Below are positions 1,101-27,750 of a DNA stretch of 33,498 bases, piece by piece. Origin of the DNA: Peptococcaceae bacterium (GTDB lineage Bacteria; Bacillota; Desulfitobacteriia; Desulfitobacteriales; Syntrophobotulaceae); the NCBI GenBank assembly GCA_012520405.1, contig JAAYOJ010000065.1:1-33498 (forward strand), given 5' to 3'. The position numbers and the translations under genes are program-made. Numbering within the stretch: the first letter of the stretch is position 1; each line of letters opens with the position of its first letter. The notes beneath the pieces are model-generated. The model was given only the letters and a program-made list of their open reading frames with translations. It had not been told where the DNA came from and ran no database searches.

Positions 1101-2252
1101 ATGCGTATGTTAAAAATTAGTCTAAGAGGAGACGATGTGGCCGTTTTACAAAGTCGTTTAAAGAGCTTGGGTTACCATCCGGGCCCTATTGACGGTATTT
1201 TTGGGACGCGTACCCAACAGGCTGTTATCCGCTTCCAAAGAGACCGCGGTCTAACCCCGGACGGCATTGTCGGTCCTCTTACTTACGGGGCTCTTGGCAT
1301 CAGGCAGAGACTTGATAGGCCTGATGTCGGAACAACAGCAATTGTGAACACCAATACAAATTATACTTATGATGTGCTGGTAGGGGATATACAGGAATTG
1401 CAAAGGCGTTATCCATTTTTGGAAGTAGGGGTGGCCGGGCAAAGTGTTCTGGGCCGGAATCTTTATTATTTAAAACTGGGGAATGGGCCTAACCAAGTAT
1501 TCTTTAATGGTGCCCATCACTCCCTGGAATGGATTACAACAGTCCTGCTTATGAAGTTCACGGAGAATTTTCTCCAGGCCTATACCAAAGGGACATCGAT
1601 CAGAGGGTATAACCCTCGGGAAATTTGGAACATGTCTTCTATTTATATCATGCCGATGGTAAATCCCGATGGCATAGACTTAGTATTAAACGGACTACAG
1701 AGAAATAACCCCTTTTACCAGCAGCTAATAAGCTGGAATAGAAACAGTACAGATTTTTCCCGAAATTGGCAGGCCAACATCCGGGGTGTGGATCTCAATC
1801 ATAATTATAATGCTTCCTGGCAGTTATCCAAGCAAGCCGAACCGGCTTATGGTATTACCGGCCCGGGCCCGACCAGATATTCCGGTCCGTATCCCGAGTC
1901 TGAACCGGAATCCAGAGCGGTAGCCGACTTTACCAGAGCCCACGACTTCCGCTTGGTAATAGCCTTTCACAGTCAGGGAGAAGTAATTTACTGGGACTAC
2001 CTAGGGATGGCAGGACAGCAGGCTTGGGAAATAGCCACTCAATTATCCAACGTCAGCGGTTATGCTCTGGATCAAACCACCGGTATTGCTTCTTATGCTG
2101 GGTACAAAGACTGGTTTATAGAACAGTACAGAAGACCAGGCTTCACAGTAGAAGTAGGACGCGGAACTAATCCATTGTCCATCTCTCAATTTCCGAAAAT
2201 ATATAATGACAATGAAGGCTTACTACTGCTGGCTTCGATAATTACGGCTTAA
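1101..2252 (+). CDS. Peptidoglycan-binding M14 zinc carboxypeptidase (gamma-D-glutamyl-diaminopimelate endopeptidase type)
   Basis: Likely cleaves the gamma-D-Glu-diamino acid bond in cell-wall stem peptides. An N-terminal PG_binding_1 domain covers about residues 8-65 (LRGDDVAVLQSRL, then GIFGTRTQQAVIRFQ). A peptidase M14 domain follows: zinc ligands HSLE (H and E about 140 and 143), substrate-binding GVDLNHNY, third ligand in AFHSQGE (about 290) and catalytic Glu in FTVEVGRG (about 351). All key residues are present and the length suits the spore/sporulation-type M14 enzymes. No signal peptide is seen, which also occurs in endopeptidase I-like proteins of spore formers. I chose ATG 1101 because GGGTGAT lies just upstream; GTG 1092 and ATG 1095 are alternatives in the same frame. 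Its stop overlaps the stop of the convergent minus-strand gene within TTAA at 2249-2252. Confidence 0.9.
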   Translation: MRMLKISLRGDDVAVLQSRLKSLGYHPGPIDGIFGTRTQQAVIRFQRDRGLTPDGIVGPLTYGALGIRQRLDRPDVGTTAIVNTNTNYTYDVLVGDIQELQRRYPFLEVGVAGQSVLGRNLYYLKLGNGPNQVFFNGAHHSLEWITTVLLMKFTENFLQAYTKGTSIRGYNPREIWNMSSIYIMPMVNPDGIDLVLNGLQRNNPFYQQLISWNRNSTDFSRNWQANIRGVDLNHNYNASWQLSKQAEPAYGITGPGPTRYSGPYPESEPESRAVADFTRAHDFRLVIAFHSQGEVIYWDYLGMAGQQAWEIATQLSNVSGYALDQTTGIASYAGYKDWFIEQYRRPGFTVEVGRGTNPLSISQFPKIYNDNEGLLLLASIITA

Positions 2253-4222
2253 ACACGTCCAATATTTCTGGCAATCATAAAGGCCTCGGTATTGGCATTG
2301 GTAATATTGCGGGGGGCCACACAGTCCCCGATCAGGTAAAATTCGGGGGCACAGAGGTTGAGCGCCAAAGCTTCCTCCCGTAATGGTCTTTGACCAACAG
2401 CATAAATCACGGTGTCTGCCTGAAAGAATTTTTCCCCTTCTGCAGTCTCCGCCAGTACACCGTTGTCTCTAATCTCTTTAGCTTTGGTTTTGAATTCAAT
2501 GTTAAGCCCGCGTTTTTTAATTTCGACTTTTAAACCGAGAATATGAAGGAAATTACCGCCGTCACTGATATGTTCGAGCATTTCAATATTAGTTACTTTT
2601 TTACCTTTATTAATTAAATGTAATCCCAGTTCAACCCCTACTAAGCCCGCTCCTAAAATAACCACATTTTCGCCTATCCGGTCAACAGCAGTGTAAGCAT
2701 CATAGGCAGACAAAACCTTCGGTCCTTCTATGCCCGGGATAGGTGGTACCAGAGACTCGGCACCTAGAGCAGCGATAATCACATCCGCGCCAATATTTTG
2801 AGCGTATTCGGGTGTAACCTCGGTATTCAAGCGCAAGTCGATATTAGGGGAGTCCTGGACAAATTTGGCTTGCTGGTTAAGGTACCTATCGAGAGGTTCT
2901 TTAAAGTAGACGTCTTTTTCGCAACGTAAAACACCGCCCAAGCGACTGGTTTTTTCACAAAGTATAACCTCGTGCCCCCGTTCAGCACAAGTTAAAGCTG
3001 CTTGCATGCCGCCAATACCGCCACCGACAACCAGAATCTTTTTCTTTTTGGCGGGTGGAATATCGAACTTCATTTCATATTCACGACCTGTTTCCGGGTT
3101 GATGGCGCAATAGGGCTCGCCGTAAATCATTTCATTGGAGAAACAGGCCAGACAGCGCATGCATTTTTTAACTTTATCTTCATTGCCGGTGCGTACTTTA
3201 GTAGGAAAATCAGGATCGGCCAAAAACTGACGGGCAGCTTCTACAACATCGGCTTGTCCGGAAGCAATAATTTCTTCCATCAATTCAGGATTATTCAAAG
3301 CTCCAATAGCAGCCACCGGGGTTTTTACATGTTTTTTGATCTCGGCCGCATATTTAACATTGACTCCATCTTCAAGGAACATACTGGGATGAGTGACGGC
3401 AAACACTTCTTCCACTTCATGATTGCCTGCGGAAACATGGATGAGGTCCACATAGCCATCCAGTTGCTTGGCGATAGCAATGCCCTCATCCAGGTCATAG
3501 CCGCTCTCATAACATTCCGAGCCGCTAATGCGGATTTCTATCGGGAATCCCGGGCCGACTTCTTTACGAATGGCCTTTAAAACGGCCAGAACCAGGCGCG
3601 CCCGGTTTTCTATGCTCGGGCCACCCCATTTGTCTTTACGGGTATTTGTTTTGGAGGAAAGGAATTGGTGGAGCAGCCAGCCATGTCCAGCGTGTACCGT
3701 GACCATGCCAAAACCGCATTTTTTTGCTAAAGCCGCTCCTTCAGCAAATTTTCGGATAGTACGTTCAATAATTTCTTCATCCATAGGGCGGATGATTCGA
3801 CCATCGATTTCGCATTCTACCGGTCCATAGGCAATACCCTGGGAAGCAGCACCGAAGAAGGAGAGTTCGCGGTTAGCAAACATCCCGGCATGAGTTAATT
3901 CTAAGGAAGCAACAGCACCGTAAACTTTGATACCGTGGGATATGGTAGCGAGATTTCTATGAATAAAAGGTGTATCCAGAGAGATTTGGCCGCGGCCGCC
4001 CCGTCCTATTTCGCCGTCCACAATGCCTTCAAAGGTGGCTACACTGGCAGCTCCGCCCATGGCCTTTCTTCCGTAATACGCAGCAGCTGCATAACCATCG
4101 TTGAGATAACCGTCTCCGTTTACATTCTGAAAACCTGTAGGGGAAGCAAAGATTCGGTTGCGGAATAATGTGTTGCCTAGGGTAATTGGAGTAAAAAGAT
4201 GGGGATACCTACATTTGTACAT
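2249..4222 (-). CDS. FMN/4Fe-4S/FAD oxidoreductase of the 2-enoate reductase / BaiCD / 2,4-dienoyl-CoA reductase family
   Basis: Cytoplasmic flavoprotein of 657 residues expected to reduce activated C=C bonds with NAD(P)H. Domains in order: old-yellow-enzyme TIM barrel (about 1-345) with VHAGHGWLLHQFLSS as the active-site strand; a 4Fe-4S site at Cys354, 357, 360 and 372; then an FAD/NAD(P) two-dinucleotide module (VVGGGIGGMQAAL near 390; VILGAGLVGVELGL further on). The start is the ATG at 4222, preceded by AAGGAGATAATGTC. The frame is open for 49 more codons upstream, but that stretch is hydrophobic, low-complexity and lacks homology to the family. Paralogous to the genes at 4582-6519 and 19488-21494. 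The substrate cannot be inferred: enoates, bile-acid enones, dienoyl-CoA and trimethylamine-like substrates all occur in the family. Confidence 0.92.
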   Translation of the reverse strand: MYKCRYPHLFTPITLGNTLFRNRIFASPTGFQNVNGDGYLNDGYAAAAYYGRKAMGGAASVATFEGIVDGEIGRGGRGQISLDTPFIHRNLATISHGIKVYGAVASLELTHAGMFANRELSFFGAASQGIAYGPVECEIDGRIIRPMDEEIIERTIRKFAEGAALAKKCGFGMVTVHAGHGWLLHQFLSSKTNTRKDKWGGPSIENRARLVLAVLKAIRKEVGPGFPIEIRISGSECYESGYDLDEGIAIAKQLDGYVDLIHVSAGNHEVEEVFAVTHPSMFLEDGVNVKYAAEIKKHVKTPVAAIGALNNPELMEEIIASGQADVVEAARQFLADPDFPTKVRTGNEDKVKKCMRCLACFSNEMIYGEPYCAINPETGREYEMKFDIPPAKKKKILVVGGGIGGMQAALTCAERGHEVILCEKTSRLGGVLRCEKDVYFKEPLDRYLNQQAKFVQDSPNIDLRLNTEVTPEYAQNIGADVIIAALGAESLVPPIPGIEGPKVLSAYDAYTAVDRIGENVVILGAGLVGVELGLHLINKGKKVTNIEMLEHISDGGNFLHILGLKVEIKKRGLNIEFKTKAKEIRDNGVLAETAEGEKFFQADTVIYAVGQRPLREEALALNLCAPEFYLIGDCVAPRNITNANTEAFMIARNIGRV

Positions 4223-4417
4223 GACATTATCTCCTTTTCCTTTTTTATCTATATTTTCTATTATAAATATTATATAAGATTTCAACAATTGAAAAAGTTC
4301 ACAAAAAAAATAGTTTAGATTTATAACATATGACAAGAGCTGTTGCTGAAAACAAAAAAGGAAATCCATTTTGGCCGGTGCTAAAGTTCAATGCTGCTAA
4401 GGTTTGTCTTATAGCAA

Positions 4418-4581: not shown

Positions 4582-6519
4582 TTACCCAAGTTCCTCCAGC
4601 AGCCTTGCGGCATGGAATCCCTGGTGAACTGCATCTATCACTTTAGCAGGTTTGACATTGTCGCCGATGGTTACTAAAATATCAATTTTACCATCCAAGG
4701 CCTCCTCAAGACTTTTATCTGATTGATAGCCTACAGCAATTACTAAGGTATCACTGGGGATTTCCGTGTTCTGGCCATTTTGGCTGACAACGACTTTGCC
4801 GGTATCTATAGAGGATAAAAGGGTATTGGTCATAACCTTAATATTAGAGTCAGAGAGTAATTTTTTGATAGCCAGATCATTGTTGGTAGCGTGCTTTACA
4901 GTGAGGAGAAGTTCATTAAGTTGCTCCACAATGGTAACATTCTTGCCCATATAATCTAGATGCAGTGCGGCCTCACAGCCAACTAGTCCGCCACCGAGTA
5001 CCACTACATTTTCCCCTGGGCAGTCACCTTTAGTTAGCATGTCCGTAGCTTCCATAATTTTTATTTTTTCCATGCCGGGAATGTTCGGGATTATTGGATT
5101 TGCTCCGGCGGCTAGAATAACTGCATCCGGTTTTTTCTTGAGAATCTCTTCCACGGTGGCTGTTTTGTTCATTCGTACGTTTACGCTGCTTTTATGGAGC
5201 TGGATTTTTAAGTACTCTACATATTTGCCGACCGCTTCTTTGAATTTGGGAGCAGCTGCCGCTATCAATGCTCCTCCGAGCCGGGCTGATTTTTCCCATA
5301 ATTCTACGTCAAAACCACGTTCCGCCGCTGTAAGGGCTGCGGTGATTCCTCCCGGTCCTCCGCCAACCACCAAAACTGATAGTTTCTTATTAGTTGGGGA
5401 AAGGTTGTAATCTCTCTCCATGCCCATGCGTGGGTTAACAGCGCAAGCAAATCTTTGATTGGTTAAGTTGGTATAAATACATTCATTACAGCCAATACAG
5501 GGTACGATGTCTTCATAGTGCCCCTGCCTAACTTTAGCCGGCCAGTGAGGGTCAGTAAGGGCGGGATGGCCAAGCCCAACTAATTCAGCTAGCCCACTGC
5601 TTACTACCTTTTCCGCCAAAACAGGATTACCCAGTTTGCCTTGTACCAGCAGTGGGGTTTTGATGCCTGCCTGTTTGCATGCTTCAGCCAGGTAGAGTTG
5701 ATTGCCTTCTTCTTGATAGACTGTTGTTACGGCATTATACCAACATTCATAGGTCCCCAGATCGAGGTGAAAGGCAGTAAAGCCGGCATCATCGAGAGTC
5801 TTAACTAATTCAATACCTTCGGCCAGAGTCCGCCCTCCTTCAATCTGATGATCGAGGGTCAATTTGATTATGAGCGGGAAATCTTTACCGCAGTTTTTCC
5901 AAACTGCATCGCGCAGTTCATAAACTATTCGCAGTCTGTTTTCTAAGCTTCCCCCGTATTCATCCGTACGCTTGTTCCAGAGTGGAGTGAGGAACTGGTC
6001 GATTAAATAGCCGCCATAAGCGTGGATTTCAATAGCATCAGCACCCGCATTTTTTGCTAATAGGGAAGCATAGCCGAATTTGTCAACCAAAAACTTGATT
6101 TCTTCTACCGTGTAAGGTGTGCAAATCAAATCGGGAAAGAAGAAAGAGGGAACAGCACTGGCCGATTTAGGAGCGGTAAAAGGGTCAATAAAAGATACAC
6201 GGCCTAAACCCAGGGAAAGCTGGGAACATACTTTGGCCCCGTAATGATGCACCTTTTCGCATAAAATGGAAAGTCTGGTTCCTTGTATATAGTTTTCTAA
6301 AACGTTAGGCATGGGTGCAGGTTCAAATTCAGTAGTCACCATAGTAGCAGTGGGATAAATCAAGCCAAATCCACCGCGGGCCCGTTCTACATAATACTCG
6401 ATCTGGCGGTCAGAATAGGCACCGTCATTGTCGGTGTGAGCAAATCCCATGGGAGCCATAACTACCCGGTTTTTTAGTTCTAAATTACCGATTTTCACTT
6501 TTTCAAATAGTGTTGGCAA
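4582..6519 (-). CDS. FMN/4Fe-4S/FAD oxidoreductase of the 2-enoate reductase / OYE family (second copy)
   Basis: Flavoenzyme of 645 residues with the same architecture as the neighbouring gene. The TIM-barrel FMN domain begins LFEKVKIGNLELKNRVVMAP and carries the active-site segment IEIHAYGGYLIDQFLTP. A 4Fe-4S binding set follows at Cys341, 344, 347 and 359, then FAD and NAD(P) folds (VVGGGPGGITAAL; VVLGGGLVGCEAAL). The start is TTG 6519, preceded by AAAGGAGAATTAATT. Sequence divergence from the gene at 2249-4222 is large, so this is an old paralogue and not a recent duplication. The role is presumed NAD(P)H-dependent reduction of an alpha,beta-unsaturated compound; substrate unknown. The 360-bp gap to the next minus-strand gene argues against a tight operon. 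Confidence 0.92.
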   Translation of the reverse strand: MPTLFEKVKIGNLELKNRVVMAPMGFAHTDNDGAYSDRQIEYYVERARGGFGLIYPTATMVTTEFEPAPMPNVLENYIQGTRLSILCEKVHHYGAKVCSQLSLGLGRVSFIDPFTAPKSASAVPSFFFPDLICTPYTVEEIKFLVDKFGYASLLAKNAGADAIEIHAYGGYLIDQFLTPLWNKRTDEYGGSLENRLRIVYELRDAVWKNCGKDFPLIIKLTLDHQIEGGRTLAEGIELVKTLDDAGFTAFHLDLGTYECWYNAVTTVYQEEGNQLYLAEACKQAGIKTPLLVQGKLGNPVLAEKVVSSGLAELVGLGHPALTDPHWPAKVRQGHYEDIVPCIGCNECIYTNLTNQRFACAVNPRMGMERDYNLSPTNKKLSVLVVGGGPGGITAALTAAERGFDVELWEKSARLGGALIAAAAPKFKEAVGKYVEYLKIQLHKSSVNVRMNKTATVEEILKKKPDAVILAAGANPIIPNIPGMEKIKIMEATDMLTKGDCPGENVVVLGGGLVGCEAALHLDYMGKNVTIVEQLNELLLTVKHATNNDLAIKKLLSDSNIKVMTNTLLSSIDTGKVVVSQNGQNTEIPSDTLVIAVGYQSDKSLEEALDGKIDILVTIGDNVKPAKVIDAVHQGFHAARLLEELG

Positions 6520-13725: not shown

Positions 13726-15333
13726 TTGGCGACAAAGAAAAAAAACAAAAAGGGTAAAAGAATACTCATCGTAATCGCCTTGGTAATAGCGGGCCTCCTA
13801 CTCGGGACGGCAGCTTTTGCCTACTACTTCTTCGACGGCGGCAGCCTGCCGGGAACCGGTAAAAGTATTAATAAGAGAGTTAGTGTTCTTTTGATTGGTA
13901 CGGATAAAAGGCCGGGACAAAATTCTTATAATGCTGACACCATTATTGTAGCCAGCTTCGATCCTCAAACCAATATAGTTTCTATGCTGTCTATACCAAG
14001 AGATACTCGAGTAACCCTGCCGGGATCCGAAAAGAATTATAAAATCAATGCTATTCCTTCTTTAAAGGGGATACCGGAATTGAAAAAACAAGTTACCGAT
14101 TTGACCGGTATCAAACTTAACGGCTATGTCCTGACTAATTTTACAGGATTTAAGGACATTATCGATACCTTGGGCGGAATCACCCTTGAAGTGGAAAAAG
14201 ATATGAAATATGAGACTGGAGACAAAGAAGACGGCTATATTAACCTCAAAGCCGGTGTGCAAGAGTTGGACGGCAGCAAGGCTCTGCAGTATGTCCGTTT
14301 CCGTAACGACGCTACCGCCGATATAGGTAGAACCGCCCGACAGCAAAAATTGTTAGCCGCAGTAGGACAAAAAATGCTTGAACCGGCTACCATTCTTAAA
14401 CTGCCTAAGCTTGTACCGCAGTTCTTTGAAGCTGTGGAGACGGACTTAACCTTGAAAGAAATAATGACCTTGGCCGGAGCAGCGAAATCCTTAAGCGATG
14501 TTACCATTGTGAGTCAAACTCTGCCCGGCGATGCCATTATGCTAAACGGGCTGAGCTATTGGGAAGTAAACCGGGAAAAAGCGAGAGAAGTTGCCGGCAA
14601 TTTACTCTTGGGACAAACAACTGATAAGGTCTGGGACAGCTCTGATCTAGGTTCATTAGATCCAAATGTGAAAGCTAATTTGGATACCCCTGAAACTGAA
14701 GTTAGTATCGATATAGCTGAAATTCCCGGTATAATCATACCTAAAGCCGGGGAGGTACCCGTAACAACCATTCAAACCAAACAATATTCGGGGAAGGTCA
14801 CCTGGTCGCCCGATGATAGCACCTTCCTCCCAGGGGAAGTTTATACCGCCACCATTACCCTTGTTCCTAAAGCAGGTTACACTTTAAAAGAAGTGAAGGA
14901 GAACTTCTTTATTGTTCCGGGAGCAACCACCTCCAATGCATCTGGTTCCGGGGTGGTAACGGCTATTTTCCCGAAATTGCCGGCCGAACAAACTTCTCCG
15001 ACCGACCCAATAACTGAATTACCGGATAACATTGCCATCCTAATCAATATGACCCAAATTGCTGGAGTTACCCCACCTGAGGCGGGAGCCTCGCCTGTAA
15101 CAAGCATCACGGAAACAGAACAATACACGGGAACGGTCAAGTGGATGCCGGTCGACAACCCCTTTATCGAAGGCCGGCAATATACAGCTATTATCACCCT
15201 GGTCCCTAAAGACGGTTACACCCTGGAAGGTATTGCTGAGAACTCTTTCACCGTACCTGGAGCCTCGACAACCAACGCAGCCGGCTCAGGGATAGTAACG
15301 GCCGTCTTCCCCCCAGCCGAGCCATCACAGTAA
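13726..15333 (+). CDS. LytR-CpsA-Psr (LCP) family cell-wall polymer transferase with two C-terminal repeat modules
   Basis: Membrane-anchored enzyme expected to transfer undecaprenyl-linked anionic polymers to peptidoglycan on the outer face. A short basic N-terminus is followed by one membrane helix (about 12-36), then the LCP domain (about 50-215) with IGTDKRPG, SIPRDTRV (R92, D93, R95) and VRFRNDATADIGRTARQQ, holding the Arg/Asp residues that bind the lipid pyrophosphate. The C-terminus has two homologous modules (about 326-418 and 435-531), each with PVT, a TGTVxW-like strand, TxTITLVPKxGYTL and a final GSGxVTAxFP. These resemble modules of clostridial surface proteins and are not normally part of LCP enzymes. 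The TTG start at 13726 has GAAGGTGA 7 bp upstream. Confidence 0.92.
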   Translation: MATKKKNKKGKRILIVIALVIAGLLLGTAAFAYYFFDGGSLPGTGKSINKRVSVLLIGTDKRPGQNSYNADTIIVASFDPQTNIVSMLSIPRDTRVTLPGSEKNYKINAIPSLKGIPELKKQVTDLTGIKLNGYVLTNFTGFKDIIDTLGGITLEVEKDMKYETGDKEDGYINLKAGVQELDGSKALQYVRFRNDATADIGRTARQQKLLAAVGQKMLEPATILKLPKLVPQFFEAVETDLTLKEIMTLAGAAKSLSDVTIVSQTLPGDAIMLNGLSYWEVNREKAREVAGNLLLGQTTDKVWDSSDLGSLDPNVKANLDTPETEVSIDIAEIPGIIIPKAGEVPVTTIQTKQYSGKVTWSPDDSTFLPGEVYTATITLVPKAGYTLKEVKENFFIVPGATTSNASGSGVVTAIFPKLPAEQTSPTDPITELPDNIAILINMTQIAGVTPPEAGASPVTSITETEQYTGTVKWMPVDNPFIEGRQYTAIITLVPKDGYTLEGIAENSFTVPGASTTNAAGSGIVTAVFPPAEPSQ

Positions 15334-19487: not shown

Positions 19488-21494
19488 TTAAATCCTTCTT
19501 GCCGCATGAAAACCCTCATGGGTTGCCTGCATTATTTTTCTGGGGCTATTCACATCTCCGACAGGAATTATCTCAATACCTTTGCACTCAGCTCTTAACT
19601 GCTTAAGCAAAGTTCTGTTAGACTTTAGTCCAAGTGCACAAACTACAGCATCCCCCTGATATTCCTGATTTCCGCTATCTGTTTCACATTGAACCTTATT
19701 GCCTGTCATGGCTATGATTTTGTGATTAGTTTTTACGTTAATATGCATCTCTGCTAGCTTGGATTTCAAAACCCATTTGGTATAAATAGGCATGTCGGGG
19801 GCTACATCAGGGAGCATATCAACCATAGTTACATTCTTGCTTCTCTCAGCCAAAAACATCGCTACTTCACAGCCGACAAGACCGGCTCCACAGACAATTA
19901 TATCCTTACCCTCAGGGATTCTACCGTCAAGTACTTCTAAGGGATCGAGTACCGCAGGATCTTCAGCACCTTTGATCTCGGGCTTAAAGGTGGAAGCCCC
20001 AGTAGCTACGATTACGACATCAAAATCACCGTTTTTAATGGTATCTGTAGTTACCTCCGTCCCAGTCTTGATTGTAGCGCCACAGTTTTGCACAGCATGG
20101 ATCAAATAATTGGTATAATCTCGGTAATCCTGTTTAAAATCAGGGATACATACATAATATAAAGCTCCGCCTAATCTATCTTCTTTTTCAAACAAAGTGA
20201 CCTCATGTCCGCGAATCTTGGCCGTTAAAGCAGCTTGTATTCCTGCCGGGCCCGATCCGATAATTGCTATCTTTTTCCTGCTCGTTGCCGAAGTAACCCT
20301 GGTATAGCCCTCATATTCTTTACCGGCTTCAGGGTTTACGGCGCAAGAAATACCACAACTACGCATAACTTCTCCCAGGCATTCATTACAGCGCAGACAA
20401 CGCCGAATGGTTTCGGGTTCCCCGATGGCAATTTTTGCAGCATAGTCCGGATCTGCTATAATTTGGCGGCCGATAGCAATAAAATCAGCTTCCTGTTTCT
20501 CTAACATTTCATTACCCATTTCCGGGCTAATACCGCACACGGCAATAACCGGTACATTTACAACCTTTTTAACAGCTGCCGCCAAATGAGCCAGTGAACC
20601 TCTGGGAGTATAGTTCGGAGGCACCCACACAGAAGTAGCTACTCCATCGCTTAAGTTCTTACCCTCCGGCGATTCTTTACCCTCCATAACGTTAAAATAG
20701 GTTTCCAGTCTGGAGTCCCAGGTTCCGGCGGATACATTAATGGCGTCGACTCCTTCTTCCTCAGCCCATTTAGCAAAAGTACAAGCTTCTTCAATAGTTA
20801 AGCCATTGGGTACATATTCTTCTGCGCTTAATCGATAGATTAATGGAAAATCGCTGCCGGCATATTTCTTTATGGCCCGAATGCATTCCAGAGCGAAGCG
20901 AGCGCGGTTTTCCAAACTGCCTCCATATTCGTCAGTTCTTCTATTAGTGTAGCCGGAGAGAAATTGCAGGGGTAAATAGCCGTGGGCACCATGTAATTCT
21001 ATTGCATCAAAGCCACAGAGCCGAGCCCGTTCAGCTGCTCTTCCGTATTTTTCTATACTATCTTTGATTTCTTCGAGGGTCATTGCTCTCGGTGTATCAT
21101 CCGGCAACTGCATAGTTCCCACGCCGGAAGGAGAGAGTGGTTGATGGCCGGTTACTGCTTCACTGGCAAAACATCCTCCATGTGCTAGTTGCAGGCATAT
21201 CTTAGCCCCGCCGGAGTGAGCAGCATGTGGGATTCTACTTAAACCCGGCATAAAACTCATATTGGTAATTTCAATTTCCCCGGGAATAACTCGTCCCAGG
21301 GGATCGGGACAACAAACCTCGGTTATAATCAGTCCTACCCCTCCATTAGCCCGACGAGCATAATAATTGACAATAACATCGGAAACCGTACCATCCGCTG
21401 CGGCCAAGTTGGTCCCCATGGCAGGCATAACCATCCTGTTTCTAACTTCCATGTTACCTATTTTTCCCGGTTCCAAAAGTTTTTCATAACCCAT
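19488..21494 (-). CDS. FMN/4Fe-4S/FAD oxidoreductase of the 2-enoate reductase / OYE family (third copy)
   Basis: 668-residue flavoenzyme with the same three-part plan as the two copies at 2249-6519: TIM barrel starting LLEPGKIGNMEVRNRMVMPA with active-site IELHGAHGYLPLQFLSG, the 4Fe-4S set C366, C369, C372 and C384 (CLRCNEC...C), then FAD (IIGSGPAGIQAAL) and NAD(P) (VCGAGLVGCEVAM) folds. Cytoplasmic; predicted to reduce an unsaturated substrate with NAD(P)H. ATG 21494 has AGGAGGG eight bases upstream. The upstream region holds a 19-bp tandem repeat array (21584-21659) that could be its control region. It is the closest of the three to classical enoate reductase length; the substrate cannot be inferred. 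Confidence 0.92.
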   Translation of the reverse strand: MGYEKLLEPGKIGNMEVRNRMVMPAMGTNLAAADGTVSDVIVNYYARRANGGVGLIITEVCCPDPLGRVIPGEIEITNMSFMPGLSRIPHAAHSGGAKICLQLAHGGCFASEAVTGHQPLSPSGVGTMQLPDDTPRAMTLEEIKDSIEKYGRAAERARLCGFDAIELHGAHGYLPLQFLSGYTNRRTDEYGGSLENRARFALECIRAIKKYAGSDFPLIYRLSAEEYVPNGLTIEEACTFAKWAEEEGVDAINVSAGTWDSRLETYFNVMEGKESPEGKNLSDGVATSVWVPPNYTPRGSLAHLAAAVKKVVNVPVIAVCGISPEMGNEMLEKQEADFIAIGRQIIADPDYAAKIAIGEPETIRRCLRCNECLGEVMRSCGISCAVNPEAGKEYEGYTRVTSATSRKKIAIIGSGPAGIQAALTAKIRGHEVTLFEKEDRLGGALYYVCIPDFKQDYRDYTNYLIHAVQNCGATIKTGTEVTTDTIKNGDFDVVIVATGASTFKPEIKGAEDPAVLDPLEVLDGRIPEGKDIIVCGAGLVGCEVAMFLAERSKNVTMVDMLPDVAPDMPIYTKWVLKSKLAEMHINVKTNHKIIAMTGNKVQCETDSGNQEYQGDAVVCALGLKSNRTLLKQLRAECKGIEIIPVGDVNSPRKIMQATHEGFHAARRI

Positions 21495-22859: not shown

Positions 22860-22898
22860 TTAAAAAAAACTTTTCTGTTGTTGTGAAGGAGATATTTG

Positions 22899-23612
22899 AT
22901 GATTGAAGTTCGAAATATGAGTAAAAAATACGGTAAGCTGATGGCTAACGATAATATCAACTTGTCCATAGGTCGAGGTGAACTGGCCGTACTGCTCGGT
23001 CCCAACGGTGCGGGCAAATCGACACTGATCAAGTCTATTTGCGGCCTCCTGCGTTTCCAGGGCACTATTACTATAGACGGACAGGAAAATCATACAGTGG
23101 AGGCTAAACGGCTTTTAGGGTATGTGCCGGAGTTTCCCGTACTGTACCCGATGCTGACGGTAGCGGAGCACCTGGAGTTCATTGCCAAAGCCTACCGATT
23201 GAAGAATTGGGAGGAAAAAGGGGAGGCCTTGCTTCGCCGTTTCGAGCTGGACGATAAAAGGCTGAGGCTGGGTAAAGAATTATCCAAAGGGATGCAGCAA
23301 AAGGTCAGTGTCTGCTGCGCACTTTTACCTCAACCCCAAGCGGTCATTATGGATGAACCCCTCGTAGGGCTTGATCCCCACGGCATCAGGGAGCTGAAAG
23401 CAAATATTACAGAACTGCGGGACAGTGGCTGCGCTCTCCTAATCAGCACCCACATGATAGAAAGCGTGGAAGAAAACTGGGATGTAACCTATATCATGGT
23501 TAAAGGCCGGATCGCTCGGGTTTGCCGCCGTACGGATCTTGCGGCCGGCCAAAGTCTGGCGGATGTCTATTTCAACATCACAGAAGAAAAAGGCCAGGAG
23601 GATACACCATGA
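22899..23612 (+). CDS. ABC transporter ATP-binding protein
   Basis: Cytoplasmic ATPase subunit (237 residues) of an exporter. Walker A GPNGAGKS (34-41), Q-loop in GYVPEFPVLYPMLTV, signature LSKGMQQKVSV, Walker B AVIMDEPLVGLDP, and switch His in LISTHMIES. Closest in style to ABC-2 type drug, lantibiotic or Na+ export ATPases. ATG 22899 is preferred to TTG 22896 because GGAG at 22888-22891 is 7 bp from it. The stop overlaps the start of the permease gene (ATGA at 23609-23612), implying translational coupling. Confidence 0.93.
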   Translation: MIEVRNMSKKYGKLMANDNINLSIGRGELAVLLGPNGAGKSTLIKSICGLLRFQGTITIDGQENHTVEAKRLLGYVPEFPVLYPMLTVAEHLEFIAKAYRLKNWEEKGEALLRRFELDDKRLRLGKELSKGMQQKVSVCCALLPQPQAVIMDEPLVGLDPHGIRELKANITELRDSGCALLISTHMIESVEENWDVTYIMVKGRIARVCRRTDLAAGQSLADVYFNITEEKGQEDTP

Positions 23613-25198
23613 ATAGTCTGGTTTTTTTGCTGGTAAAAAGCGCTAAGAATAGTTTGCTGGAGCTGCGGCGGAAACCGGCTAAACTAATATTATGGGTATT
23701 TGTGCTGGCCATGATTATCGGTTTAATTGTACTTTCTCTGTTTACACGCCAAAGCGCAGCCGGTTCCCTTGACCTTATCTGGCTCCAGGGCATCCTGTTT
23801 CTCTTCATCCTGCTTTTTGTGGTGATCTCCATTCAAAAGGGACTCATGAGCGGGGACGTTATTTTTGATATGAACGATGTGAATTTACTATTTGTTTCCC
23901 CGGTCAATTCCCGTTTAATCCTGCTATACGGTATTGTACGTATGGCTAAAATGTCTTTCCTGGCGGGTTTTTTTATCCTGTTTCAAAGCAATTCCTTAAG
24001 CCAAGGTTTTGGGGTCGGATTTGATGCAGTACTTTTAGTCCTACTCGGTTTTATGCTGGCTATGTGTATGCTGCAAATCCTGTCACTTCTGATTTACACT
24101 TTAACTAACGGAAAACCACGGCGGAAACTGACGGTCCGAATTATTAGCGTTGCGGTTTTTCTCCCGCTCTTTGTTTACATCGTCGTCCAACTTATTGCAA
24201 CCGGTGATCTTTTTCTGGCCTTGGAAAATACCCTGCGTTCACCCTTGGCAGCTTGGACGCCTGTGGCCGGTTGGGCAGCTGCAGGCACTGTTTCCCTGAT
24301 TGCCGGTGAATTGGGCTCCGGATTCTTGTTCCTCGGGCTGCTTGTACTGTCTGGGGCGCTTTTAATTCTTTATATTGCATTAAGCAATCCCGACTATTAT
24401 GAAGACGTGCTGGTAGCTACGGAAACAGCCTTTGAAAAGAAAAGGGCCATGGCTGAAGGCCAGATCAATACGGAAGCATTATCGACGAAAAAAGTAAAGC
24501 TTGCTAAAACCGGAATAGGCGGAATGGGGGCTAATGTCTTTTTTTATAAACACCTGCGAGAATCGTTTCGGGCTAACCGTTTCGGTTTGTGGGGAATGAC
24601 ATCCCTTTTCACGGTAGTCGGTGCGGCCTTGTTTTCTGTGTTCCTGCGCGGTGGGGAAGGCAAAATTTTCATTCTGCTGCAAACGCTGATGTGGATGCAG
24701 ATTTTTATGATCGGAACAGGGCGCGGCCTAAAAGAGCTTTATTCCCACTATATCTACCTAATTCCAGAAAACTCTTTTCGTAAAATAGTCTGGAGTAACC
24801 TGGAAATCGCTTTTAAAGTTCTGGTGGAGAGCCTGGTAATTTTCGGCATCGCCGGTCTGATCTTGGGAGAATCTATTGGGTCCATTGTAGCAGCCATGCT
24901 GGTTTATAGTTTGTTTTCCTTTTTATTGCTGGGCATCAATTATCTTTCCCTGCGCTGGACAGGCGCTAACATCAGCGCCGGGCTTCTAATTATAATCTAT
25001 ACCATTGCAGTGATCCTAATTATGCTGCCCGGTCTGATTGCAGCCATTGTCCTCGCCATAACCATCGAGAACAACGGCCTATTGATTGGACTAGGGGTGC
25101 TGGCTTTGTGGGAACTGTTGGCTGGGCTGGGCTGCTTCGCGCTGTCCAAGGGCATACTACATCGTGTGGATATGCCCGTGCTTAAAACTGAAAAGTAA
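23609..25198 (+). CDS. ABC exporter permease (putative ABC exporter family)
   Basis: Integral membrane partner of the preceding ATPase, 529 residues, with about 10-12 hydrophobic segments, for example LILWVFVLAMIIGLIVLSLF, LIWLQGILFLFILLFVVISI and FGLWGMTSLFTVVGAALFSVF. The segment GDVIFDMNDVNLLFVSPVNSRLILLYGIVRM is typical of the large Firmicutes putative ABC exporter family. Start ATG 23609 with AGGAGG about 7 bp upstream overlaps the ATPase stop by four bases; the longer frame from 23522 only shadows the ATPase gene. The cargo is unknown; a self-immunity, peptide or lipid exporter role is possible. No neighbouring substrate peptide was seen. Confidence 0.88.
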   Translation: MNSLVFLLVKSAKNSLLELRRKPAKLILWVFVLAMIIGLIVLSLFTRQSAAGSLDLIWLQGILFLFILLFVVISIQKGLMSGDVIFDMNDVNLLFVSPVNSRLILLYGIVRMAKMSFLAGFFILFQSNSLSQGFGVGFDAVLLVLLGFMLAMCMLQILSLLIYTLTNGKPRRKLTVRIISVAVFLPLFVYIVVQLIATGDLFLALENTLRSPLAAWTPVAGWAAAGTVSLIAGELGSGFLFLGLLVLSGALLILYIALSNPDYYEDVLVATETAFEKKRAMAEGQINTEALSTKKVKLAKTGIGGMGANVFFYKHLRESFRANRFGLWGMTSLFTVVGAALFSVFLRGGEGKIFILLQTLMWMQIFMIGTGRGLKELYSHYIYLIPENSFRKIVWSNLEIAFKVLVESLVIFGIAGLILGESIGSIVAAMLVYSLFSFLLLGINYLSLRWTGANISAGLLIIIYTIAVILIMLPGLIAAIVLAITIENNGLLIGLGVLALWELLAGLGCFALSKGILHRVDMPVLKTEK

Positions 25199-25313: not shown

Positions 25314-27737
25314 TTGTTTAAGAAAGCTATTCTTATATTGCTTATTGGGCTGTTCCTGCTCCTTCCAGCCGGTGTTTATTTCCAAACTCCCACAACGCTT
25401 AATGCCACTCCTTTTATGGAGCGCATCGAAGGCAGTACAAATATGGAGACTGTAATATCTATTGTCCAAAGGCTCGGTGGCACGGCAGCCTCAAACATTG
25501 TGATTACCGATGACTGCCAAAATGCCGCGAATTTTGCCGCTTCCGTACTAGCCTTTCACCTGGACGCTCCTATCCTGCCTAAGAGTCAATCCGCAATTCA
25601 ATATGTCCGGCAATACCTGACCAAAGGTGGCACGGTTTGGTTAATAAGCTCTGGCGAAGTTTTCAGCGATGAGTTTGCAGCCAATTTTGCCAAGATCAAA
25701 CGGATCGAGGGCCGGGATCAGTATGAAACAGCGGCTTTAATCGCCGAACAACTTGGTAAAACAAAGACCGTAGTGATCTGTTCCGGTGAAAATATAGCAG
25801 ATGCCTTAAATATTTGCAGCATTGCCTCCCGGGAAAAATGGCCTATTTTATTGACCTTTAAAAACTCCCTGCCACAGGCAACCAAGAATTATTTGTTAAA
25901 ATCCAAACCGCAGAACATTTATATTGTGGGAGGGAAGGGCGCAGTTTCTTATGAGCTGGAAGAGCAAATCCAGAAACTCCTGCCCTCTGCCCACTGCGAG
26001 CGCTTCCAGGGCTATAACTGCTTGGAAACATCCGCTCTGGTCCTGGCCAAGTTTATTCCTGACCCGAAGAATTTATATTTTACTTGCGCAACAGAGTATG
26101 ATCTTGCTTTAGCTGGGAGCGTATTGGCAGCCAAAACCAAGGGCGCTTTAATTTTGTGCAATTCCGCGACCATTGATTTGCCGCCAGCAATCGATAAATA
26201 TATCGCTTCTCTAAAAGAACCCACGTCCATCTATGTCTTGGGAGGACAATTTGCTGTCAGTGATGAGACCGTACTCAGTGCTGGTCAGTTGGAACAGCCC
26301 GCAGTCCAAAAAACTGATTTTGTCAACCTGGCAGAATATATTCCTTCCCTAATTATTGATTTACCTTATGCTACCACCAATAATTTTACCCGCACCCAAC
26401 TTTACTCGGAAAATGTAGCCTATTTACGCAAAGGTACGGCCGACAAATTAAAAAAAGCCGTAGAAGAACTAAACCAGAAGGGCTACCGCGTGAAAATATG
26501 GGACGCTTACCGACCGCCGGCAGTACAATTCAAAATGTGGAATGCCTTTCCCAATGCTAATTTTGTGGCTAATCCTTGGACCGGTTACTCGGATCATGCC
26601 CGTGGTTCAGCAGTAGACCTCACTATTGATAATTTGCCTATGCCCACCGATTTTGACGAATTTTCTTCTCGGGCATATCGAGTTAACCAGAATAAAAATG
26701 CTCAACTGCTAGAAGAGGTTATGGTTAAACACGGTTTTGTTCCTTTAGCCAGCGAATGGTGGCATTTCACGGACAGTGATAACCAAGAGGGTATTTATAA
26801 ACCGGTAGAAAAGGTTAATTTAGCTCCTAAATTAACACTAAGGCCCAATATAGTAGAAAGTATTACTATTAGCATGATCGGTGATGTTATTTTAGGCCAA
26901 GACGAACGTTTTGGTAATTTTGCTGACTATTATCAAAGATATGGTCCGCAATATTTCTTTTCCGGGGTTAAAGACATTCTGGCGAAGGATACCTTAACTA
27001 TCGCAAATTTGGAAGGGGCGCTAACCAAGAGCCAAGAGAAAATTGACAAAAGCAGCCAGGGGAATAGGGCATTTTGGTTTAAGGGAGAACCGGCCTATGC
27101 AGAGATCCTGCAAGCAGGAAGTATTGAAGCGGTTAACCTGGCTAATAATCATAGTCTGGACTATGGAGCAGAGGGTTTGAAGGACACCATAACCAACTTA
27201 AAAAAGGTAGGGATCACTTGTTTTGGCGAGGAACAAACAGCAATCTATGGCAAGGTAGGGCTTATCGGAGCTAATGTCTTAGGTCCGGTAGAACAAGGCA
27301 CGGACATTTCTGTATTAAAAAAGAAGCTAAAAAAACAAATCGAGTATTTACGAGAAAAAGTTCCAATTATTGTTGTCTATTTTCATTGGGGAACCGAGTA
27401 CCAAACCATAGTTGATAAACAACAGAAAGAACTGGCTCATTTTGCTGTCGATCAAGGCGCTAAACTGGTAGTCGGCAGTCATCCTCATGTATTACAGGAA
27501 ATAGAGCAGTATAAAGGCGCAACCATTGTATACTCTCTTGGAAATTTTGTGTTTGGTGGAAATACTCAAGTAGCAGTCAAGGATACCGTAATTTTTCAAC
27601 AAACTTTCCGTTTTTTAAACGATCGTTTGGTTGAAGTGGAGAAAGAAAAACTCATTCCTTGCTCAGTATCCGGCAGCAAGGATTTCAATGATTATAGACC
27701 GGTAAAAATAAATAAAAAACAGCCTCAGGAATTGTAA
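25314..27737 (+). CDS. Exported wall protein: CWB2 repeats + VanX-type D-Ala-D-Ala dipeptidase + CapA-like domain
   Basis: 807 residues, three functional parts. An N-terminal signal peptide (KKAILILLIGLFLLLPAGVYF) is followed by three cell-wall-binding type 2 repeats (about 35-325; ERIEGSTNMETV, RIEGRDQYETAALIAEQL, RFQGYNCLETSALV, ending in IYVLGGQFAVSDE). A VanX-like D-alanyl-D-alanine dipeptidase follows (about 335-510): DAYRP (R400), zinc ligands in SDHARGSAVD (H428, D435) and EWWHF (E481, H484). Then a CapA/PGA_cap metallophosphatase-like domain (about 515-790): MIGDV (D524), ANLEG (N565, E567), ANNHS (N612, H613), HWGTEY, GSHPHV (H723, H725). All catalytic motifs look intact. Acts at the outside of the wall. 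The TTG start at 25314 has a somewhat distant GAAGGGA. Confidence 0.9.
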   Translation: MFKKAILILLIGLFLLLPAGVYFQTPTTLNATPFMERIEGSTNMETVISIVQRLGGTAASNIVITDDCQNAANFAASVLAFHLDAPILPKSQSAIQYVRQYLTKGGTVWLISSGEVFSDEFAANFAKIKRIEGRDQYETAALIAEQLGKTKTVVICSGENIADALNICSIASREKWPILLTFKNSLPQATKNYLLKSKPQNIYIVGGKGAVSYELEEQIQKLLPSAHCERFQGYNCLETSALVLAKFIPDPKNLYFTCATEYDLALAGSVLAAKTKGALILCNSATIDLPPAIDKYIASLKEPTSIYVLGGQFAVSDETVLSAGQLEQPAVQKTDFVNLAEYIPSLIIDLPYATTNNFTRTQLYSENVAYLRKGTADKLKKAVEELNQKGYRVKIWDAYRPPAVQFKMWNAFPNANFVANPWTGYSDHARGSAVDLTIDNLPMPTDFDEFSSRAYRVNQNKNAQLLEEVMVKHGFVPLASEWWHFTDSDNQEGIYKPVEKVNLAPKLTLRPNIVESITISMIGDVILGQDERFGNFADYYQRYGPQYFFSGVKDILAKDTLTIANLEGALTKSQEKIDKSSQGNRAFWFKGEPAYAEILQAGSIEAVNLANNHSLDYGAEGLKDTITNLKKVGITCFGEEQTAIYGKVGLIGANVLGPVEQGTDISVLKKKLKKQIEYLREKVPIIVVYFHWGTEYQTIVDKQQKELAHFAVDQGAKLVVGSHPHVLQEIEQYKGATIVYSLGNFVFGGNTQVAVKDTVIFQQTFRFLNDRLVEVEKEKLIPCSVSGSKDFNDYRPVKINKKQPQEL

Positions 27738-27750
27738 ATTACCTAAGGCT
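27706..27750 (-). terminator. Rho-independent terminator of the symporter gene
   Basis: On the minus strand AGCCTTAGG (27750-27742) pairs with CCTGAGGCT (27729-27721, one mismatch), followed by a T-run (A-rich on plus at 27706-27719). It lies inside the 3' end of the convergent CWB2-VanX-CapA gene. Confidence 0.75.

Follow-up and report, generated by a model that had tools for sequence, protein, structure and literature searches.

A predicted wall-anchored fusion of a VanX-type dipeptidase domain and a CapA domain in a Peptococcaceae bacterium

The 33,498-nucleotide stretch of Peptococcaceae bacterium DNA analyzed here (the window) carries, at positions 25314 to 27737 of the forward strand, a gene whose one open reading frame comprises a putative signal peptide, three CWB2 modules, an M15D/VanX-type dipeptidase domain and a CapA domain, in that order. 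The architecture is conserved, the catalytic residues of both enzymes are intact, and the pairing of VanX-type and CapA domains recurs in both orders. With moderate confidence, we favor a secreted wall enzyme held by its CWB2 modules, in which a VanX-type D-Ala-D-Ala dipeptidase would be coupled to a CapA metalloenzyme that acts on a related wall substrate. Domains of the CapA/PgsA type are very common and take their name from capsule synthesis, while their reaction is unsettled. That such a domain is repeatedly fused, in either order, to an enzyme whose substrate (D-Ala-D-Ala) is fairly well defined is a direct hint to the substrate of CapA.

A single gene encodes the wall-binding modules and both enzymes

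The gene encodes 807 amino acids in an uninterrupted frame with a TTG start and a TAA stop. The Pfam matches share this frame in the order CW_binding_2 (112 bits, cut-off 24.9), Peptidase_M15 (96 bits, cut-off 27), and PGA_cap (PF09587; 191 bits, cut-off 27). At the N terminus, a putative Sec-type signal peptide was recognized by eye at residues ~1 to 31 (MFKK...core...LNA/T; positions 25314 to 25406, forward strand), with a hydrophobic core and no visible lipobox; the structural model places a helix at residues 2 to 15. An AlphaFold model of the full protein reached a mean pLDDT of 84.7 and a pTM of 0.51, and its CWB2 part, built on two sequences, nonetheless matched the Cwp folds. A separate model of the VanX-CapA part only was poor (pLDDT 65).

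The sister metagenome-assembled genome Peptococcaceae bacterium AS20ysBPTH_5 (L009/G012) carries this fusion too, and the TTG start and the upstream region are shared between the two genomes. The contig of the sister stops within CapA, and over the 784 residues that can be compared, 709 are identical (90%). The dN/dS values between the two genes are 0.18 for CWB2, 0.02 for VanX, and 0.12 for CapA, so that every domain is under purifying selection, strongest on VanX. The sequence-only reading had described one protein of wall-binding repeats, VanX and CapA, and had named a frame error joining separate genes as what would overturn it. The open frame, the Pfam matches, the folds and the sister genome all bear out the single protein. 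A frame error, an assembly chimera or chance is excluded because the sister species carries the fusion under purifying selection, and further fusions are found elsewhere.

By eye, an imperfect 9-bp inverted repeat (AGCCTCAGG...CCTAAGGCT) spans the stop codon (positions 27721 to 27750, forward strand) and is followed on its 3' side by T-rich DNA. Its loop exceeds the length permitted in the scan used. It is a possible terminator between convergent genes.

The CWB2 modules form a predicted wall anchor

The three CWB2 modules occupy residues 35 to 326 (positions 25416 to 26291, forward strand; PF04122). Scored alone, modules 2 and 3 reach 66 and 42 bits, whereas module 1 (positions 25416 to 25691, forward strand) is degenerate, with 18 bits against the cut-off of 24.9, and was recognized by its fold. 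Residues 32 to 327 of the model superpose on Cwp8 (Z 30.5) and Cwp6 (Z ~30) of Clostridioides difficile, as a three-module trefoil. 

The arrangement resembles that of Cwp6, where three CWB2 modules tether a peptidoglycan-type enzyme, an amidase. It differs from the CWB2 enzymes of C. difficile in its catalytic domains and in the sequence degeneracy of module 1. CWB2 binds the anionic polymer PSII in C. difficile (PMC5842191), and by analogy the anchor would be the only link of this protein to an anionic polymer.

CWB2 is a general anchor in this lineage: its modules number 25 to 31 per genome in the genus of the window (g1) and 61 to 83 in a neighboring genus (g15), and the VanX-CapA proteins of g15 lack them despite this abundance. 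CWB2 is a lineage-specific anchor of the genus of the window, and the core unit is the VanX and CapA pair. As judged from domain matches, anchoring is a recurrent theme among the relatives of both enzymes, several of which have membrane or wall anchors, for example SH3-VanX (L012) and SLH-CapA. The latter, from another order of Bacillota (L216:1441-3183), joins a CapA domain of the same subfamily to three SLH repeats.

The peptidase domain is VanX-like

The dipeptidase domain covers residues 332 to 491 (positions 26307 to 26786, forward strand). VanX (1r44) is its best match of solved structure, both by family profile (E 4.5e-23) and by fold, where residues 332 to 501 of the model superpose with Z 21.5 and an rmsd of 2.4 over 165 residues. 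In an alignment of 21 fusions (17 VanX-CapA and 4 CapA-VanX), the counterparts of the VanX zinc ligands (H428, D435, H484), of the catalytic base (E481) and of the arginine (R400) are invariant, in an HxxxxxxD...ExxH zinc site that aligns with 1r44. The same holds for Y352, D397, S426, and D448, which align with the substrate pocket. In VanX, the dipeptide pocket is formed by Y21, D68, S114, and D142. The roles of Arg71 and Glu181 of VanX are cited in PMC5778951.

The domain thus shares fold, zinc ligands, catalytic Glu, Arg and dipeptide-pocket residues with VanX, DdpX, and PcgL (MEROPS M15D), but it is shorter, is fused to CapA, is predicted to be anchored to the wall, and falls below the NCBIfam equivalog cut-offs (122 of the 176 bits required for DdpX and 56 of the 320 bits required for VanX). 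From these scores, we place it as a divergent M15D subfamily rather than VanX or DdpX proper, and its exact substrate may therefore differ.

These missed cut-offs also leave room for a peptidase of another kind, an M15 D,D-carboxypeptidase or endopeptidase that would trim peptidoglycan stems instead of cleaving the free dipeptide. Such an enzyme would suit a protein that is predicted to be exported and wall anchored, a relative is fused to an L,D-transpeptidase, a weak VanY signal (23.8 bits) is present, and peptidoglycan endopeptidase activity is known from M15-type relatives such as ChiX (PMC5778951). However, the VanY signal lies below its cut-off while Peptidase_M15 lies far above, VanY and LdcB rank far below VanX in Foldseek, and the VanX pocket residues are kept in all fusions. 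We consider stem trimming plausible but rather unlikely.

In the L,D-transpeptidase relative (L190:478-1875), Pfam matches show a VanX-type dipeptidase joined to a YkuD L,D-transpeptidase, which is another tie of VanX-type enzymes to wall metabolism. A second protein of similar length (L191:1545-2921), in which the VanX part is present, is probably the same fusion. Three further proteins of 441 to 472 amino acids (L187, L188, and L189) have a C-terminal VanX domain; their N-terminal ~265 to 290 amino acids gave no Pfam match in a search run on L187.

VanX works in the cytoplasm alongside VanH and VanA. The likeness of the domain to VanX had led the sequence-only reading to suggest a role akin to glycopeptide resistance, yet the protein carries a signal peptide (by eye) and a wall anchor, in contrast to cytoplasmic VanX. 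It is also the only PF01427 protein of the genome, leaving no second VanX; a genome search for D-Ala-D-Ala ligases gave one typical match (5.9e-77), the others being weak ATP-grasp matches; and no vanH/vanA-like neighbor lies within the window. Of the VanHAX set, a cytoplasmic VanX and a VanA-type ligase were thus not found in these genome searches, nor VanH in the window, and a function as a VanX-like glycopeptide-resistance factor appears very improbable. A VanX-type enzyme that is predicted to be exported and wall anchored should not carry an antibiotic-resistance annotation.

The nearest functional precedent is instead PcgL of Salmonella, a periplasmic, and hence exported, enzyme. Its activity as a D-Ala-D-Ala dipeptidase has been reported (PMC7933661, PMC3335776).

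The CapA domain retains the conserved metal-binding motifs

The CapA/PGA_cap calcineurin-like domain spans residues 510 to 807 (positions 26841 to 27734, forward strand) and, like other CapA/PgsA proteins (PF09587), is full length, scores above the Pfam gathering threshold and conserves the metal-binding motifs. D524, E567, N612, H613, D616, H691, H723, and H725 are invariant in the 21 fusions and in 12 solo relatives. The nearest solved fold is that of the lasso-peptide epimerase MslH, onto which residues 514 to 807 of the model superpose with Z 31, followed by YmdB with Z 18.

An epimerase like MslH or PgsA, which would invert a residue of a wall peptide or of another peptide and whose D-amino-acid substrate or product would be used by the dipeptidase, has therefore to be weighed. 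MslH binds a single Ca through E44, N87, H259, and H261 and has the dyads H88/D91 and H295/D11 (PMC10406935). Both His/Asp dyads are present here as H613/D616 and H725/D524, where the match of D524 to Asp11 is based on the conserved GD motif and the fold, outside the alignments. Removal of pgsA in Bacillus subtilis shifted the D/L ratio of poly-glutamate from 75/25 to 5/95, a loss of D-Glu for which the paper proposes an indirect effect (PMC6029982); by analogy, this suggests a link between CapA and D-amino acids. The single-Ca site of MslH is, however, not retained: H259 aligns with H691, but H261 aligns with the invariant G693, and the invariant H723, a second-metal His lost in MslH, stands in place of G293. 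Because of these two exchanges, the site looks dinuclear and similar to classical metallophosphoesterases, and the CapA domain looks like the ordinary dinuclear form rather than an MslH-type epimerase. Moreover, the NF038314 profile gives a score of 43 where 700 is required, and the rank of MslH as nearest fold says little because it is the only CapA-family structure found. We regard epimerization as doubtful.

The Pfam name of the domain would suit a part in poly-gamma-glutamate capsule synthesis, and the sequence-only reading had it handle an anionic polymer. Unlike in CapA/PgsA systems, however, CapA is here fused to a dipeptidase, no match to CapC/PgsC (PF14102) was obtained in the ~96% complete genome at E 0.01, with a positive B. 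subtilis control, and no capsule genes lie nearby in the window. The proposal of polymer handling by CapA is left unsupported by the lack of this poly-glutamate synthetase component in the genome, and a capsule function is highly unlikely. Resistance and capsule synthesis are both disfavored because the enzyme is predicted to be exported, is the only VanX, and is accompanied by one typical ligase and no CapC.

The VanX and CapA pair recurs in both orders

Related genomes commonly carry the VanX-CapA core. As a single predicted exported protein of ~505 to 532 amino acids without CWB2, it occurs in 15 of the 30 genomes of g15 and also in g19 (G068), and these proteins are 49 to 57% identical to the window protein across both enzymes; a more distant VanX-CapA protein is found in f59:g89 (G147). 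The reverse order, CapA-VanX, is present in three f1:g11 genomes, in G391 (f115) and in G123 (f45). In separate trees of the domains, the two orders lie near each other, and at least two changes of order are required; the two orders may go back to a single fusion event with later shuffling, or to more than one. The catalytic residues are identical in these fusions of related Bacillota, which differ from the window protein in lacking CWB2 and, in some cases, in having the reverse order. A literature search found no paper describing the fusion, in agreement with the earlier statement that it is not a described one, although its VanX-CapA core is not unique to the window.

The third genome of g1 (G013) has no VanX-CapA fusion and an unrelated solo VanX only. 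Two g15 genes look broken, by loss or by sequencing error: in G043, VanX-CapA is split across two overlapping frames (L206:805-2320), and in G049 a VanX remnant with a stop is left (L204:1604-1870). Adjacent unfused VanX and CapA genes were absent from the neighborhoods of 9 solo CapA and 9 solo VanX genes, and none of the other large CapA or VanX open reading frames checked for a hidden fusion had both domains.

In the function that we favor, the protein would be exported and then held at the wall by its CWB2 modules, on an anionic secondary polymer as in C. difficile. The VanX-type domain would hydrolyze D-Ala-D-Ala, or a close D,D-dipeptide, arising from wall turnover or from neighboring cells, so that D-Ala would be recovered or kept from accumulating, as in PcgL-like scavenging. 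CapA would be an active dinuclear calcineurin-fold metalloenzyme whose peptide or polymer substrate comes from the same wall-derived pool, and this shared pool would explain the repeated fusion of both enzymes. Export, anchoring and cleavage of D-Ala-D-Ala, as anticipated by the sequence-only reading, are supported by the predicted anatomy and the invariant residues, and the recycling role that it offered fits. In a bolder extension, which is speculative and improbable, CapA would act on D-amino-acid wall peptides, and the fusion would link the cutting of D-Ala-D-Ala with a second step on the same substrate, stereo-inversion or some other reaction of CapA. The protein would then convert D-amino acids of the wall at the cell surface for reuse.

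Genomic context

An ABC exporter lies upstream of the fusion gene on the forward strand (positions 22896 to 25198; ATPase at 22896 to 23612 and an ABC_export permease up to 25198). It keeps the same order in the sister genome, which does not imply a functional link. Downstream lies a convergent transporter gene. No operon partner pointing to a pathway was found, and the neighbors differ among genera and also within g15. A block shared by part of g15 (ABC transporter, SanA/YdcF-like protein, enoyl-CoA hydratase, cyclase, and lactate permease) was considered as operon logic and rejected as local synteny, since it is absent from other g15 genomes. E. coli SanA is tied to vancomycin exclusion. By eye, a SanA/YdcF-like membrane protein is encoded a few genes 5' of VanX-CapA in seven g15 genomes (L167 to L171, L173, and L180).

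Elsewhere in the window, positions 13726 to 15333 encode a wall-polymer ligase of the LytR-CpsA-Psr type. Its C terminus has two repeats of ~90 residues (IAEIPGIIIPKAGEVPVTTI... and MTQIAGVTPPEAGASPVTSI...), for which no firm Pfam match was obtained. Positions 1092 to 2252 encode an M14 zinc carboxypeptidase that also has a peptidoglycan-binding domain and is likely another wall-peptide enzyme. Three paralogous flavoenzymes resembling old yellow enzyme and 2,4-dienoyl-CoA reductase were recognized by eye within the 33 kb, at positions 2249 to 4369, 4582 to 6519, and 19488 to 21494.
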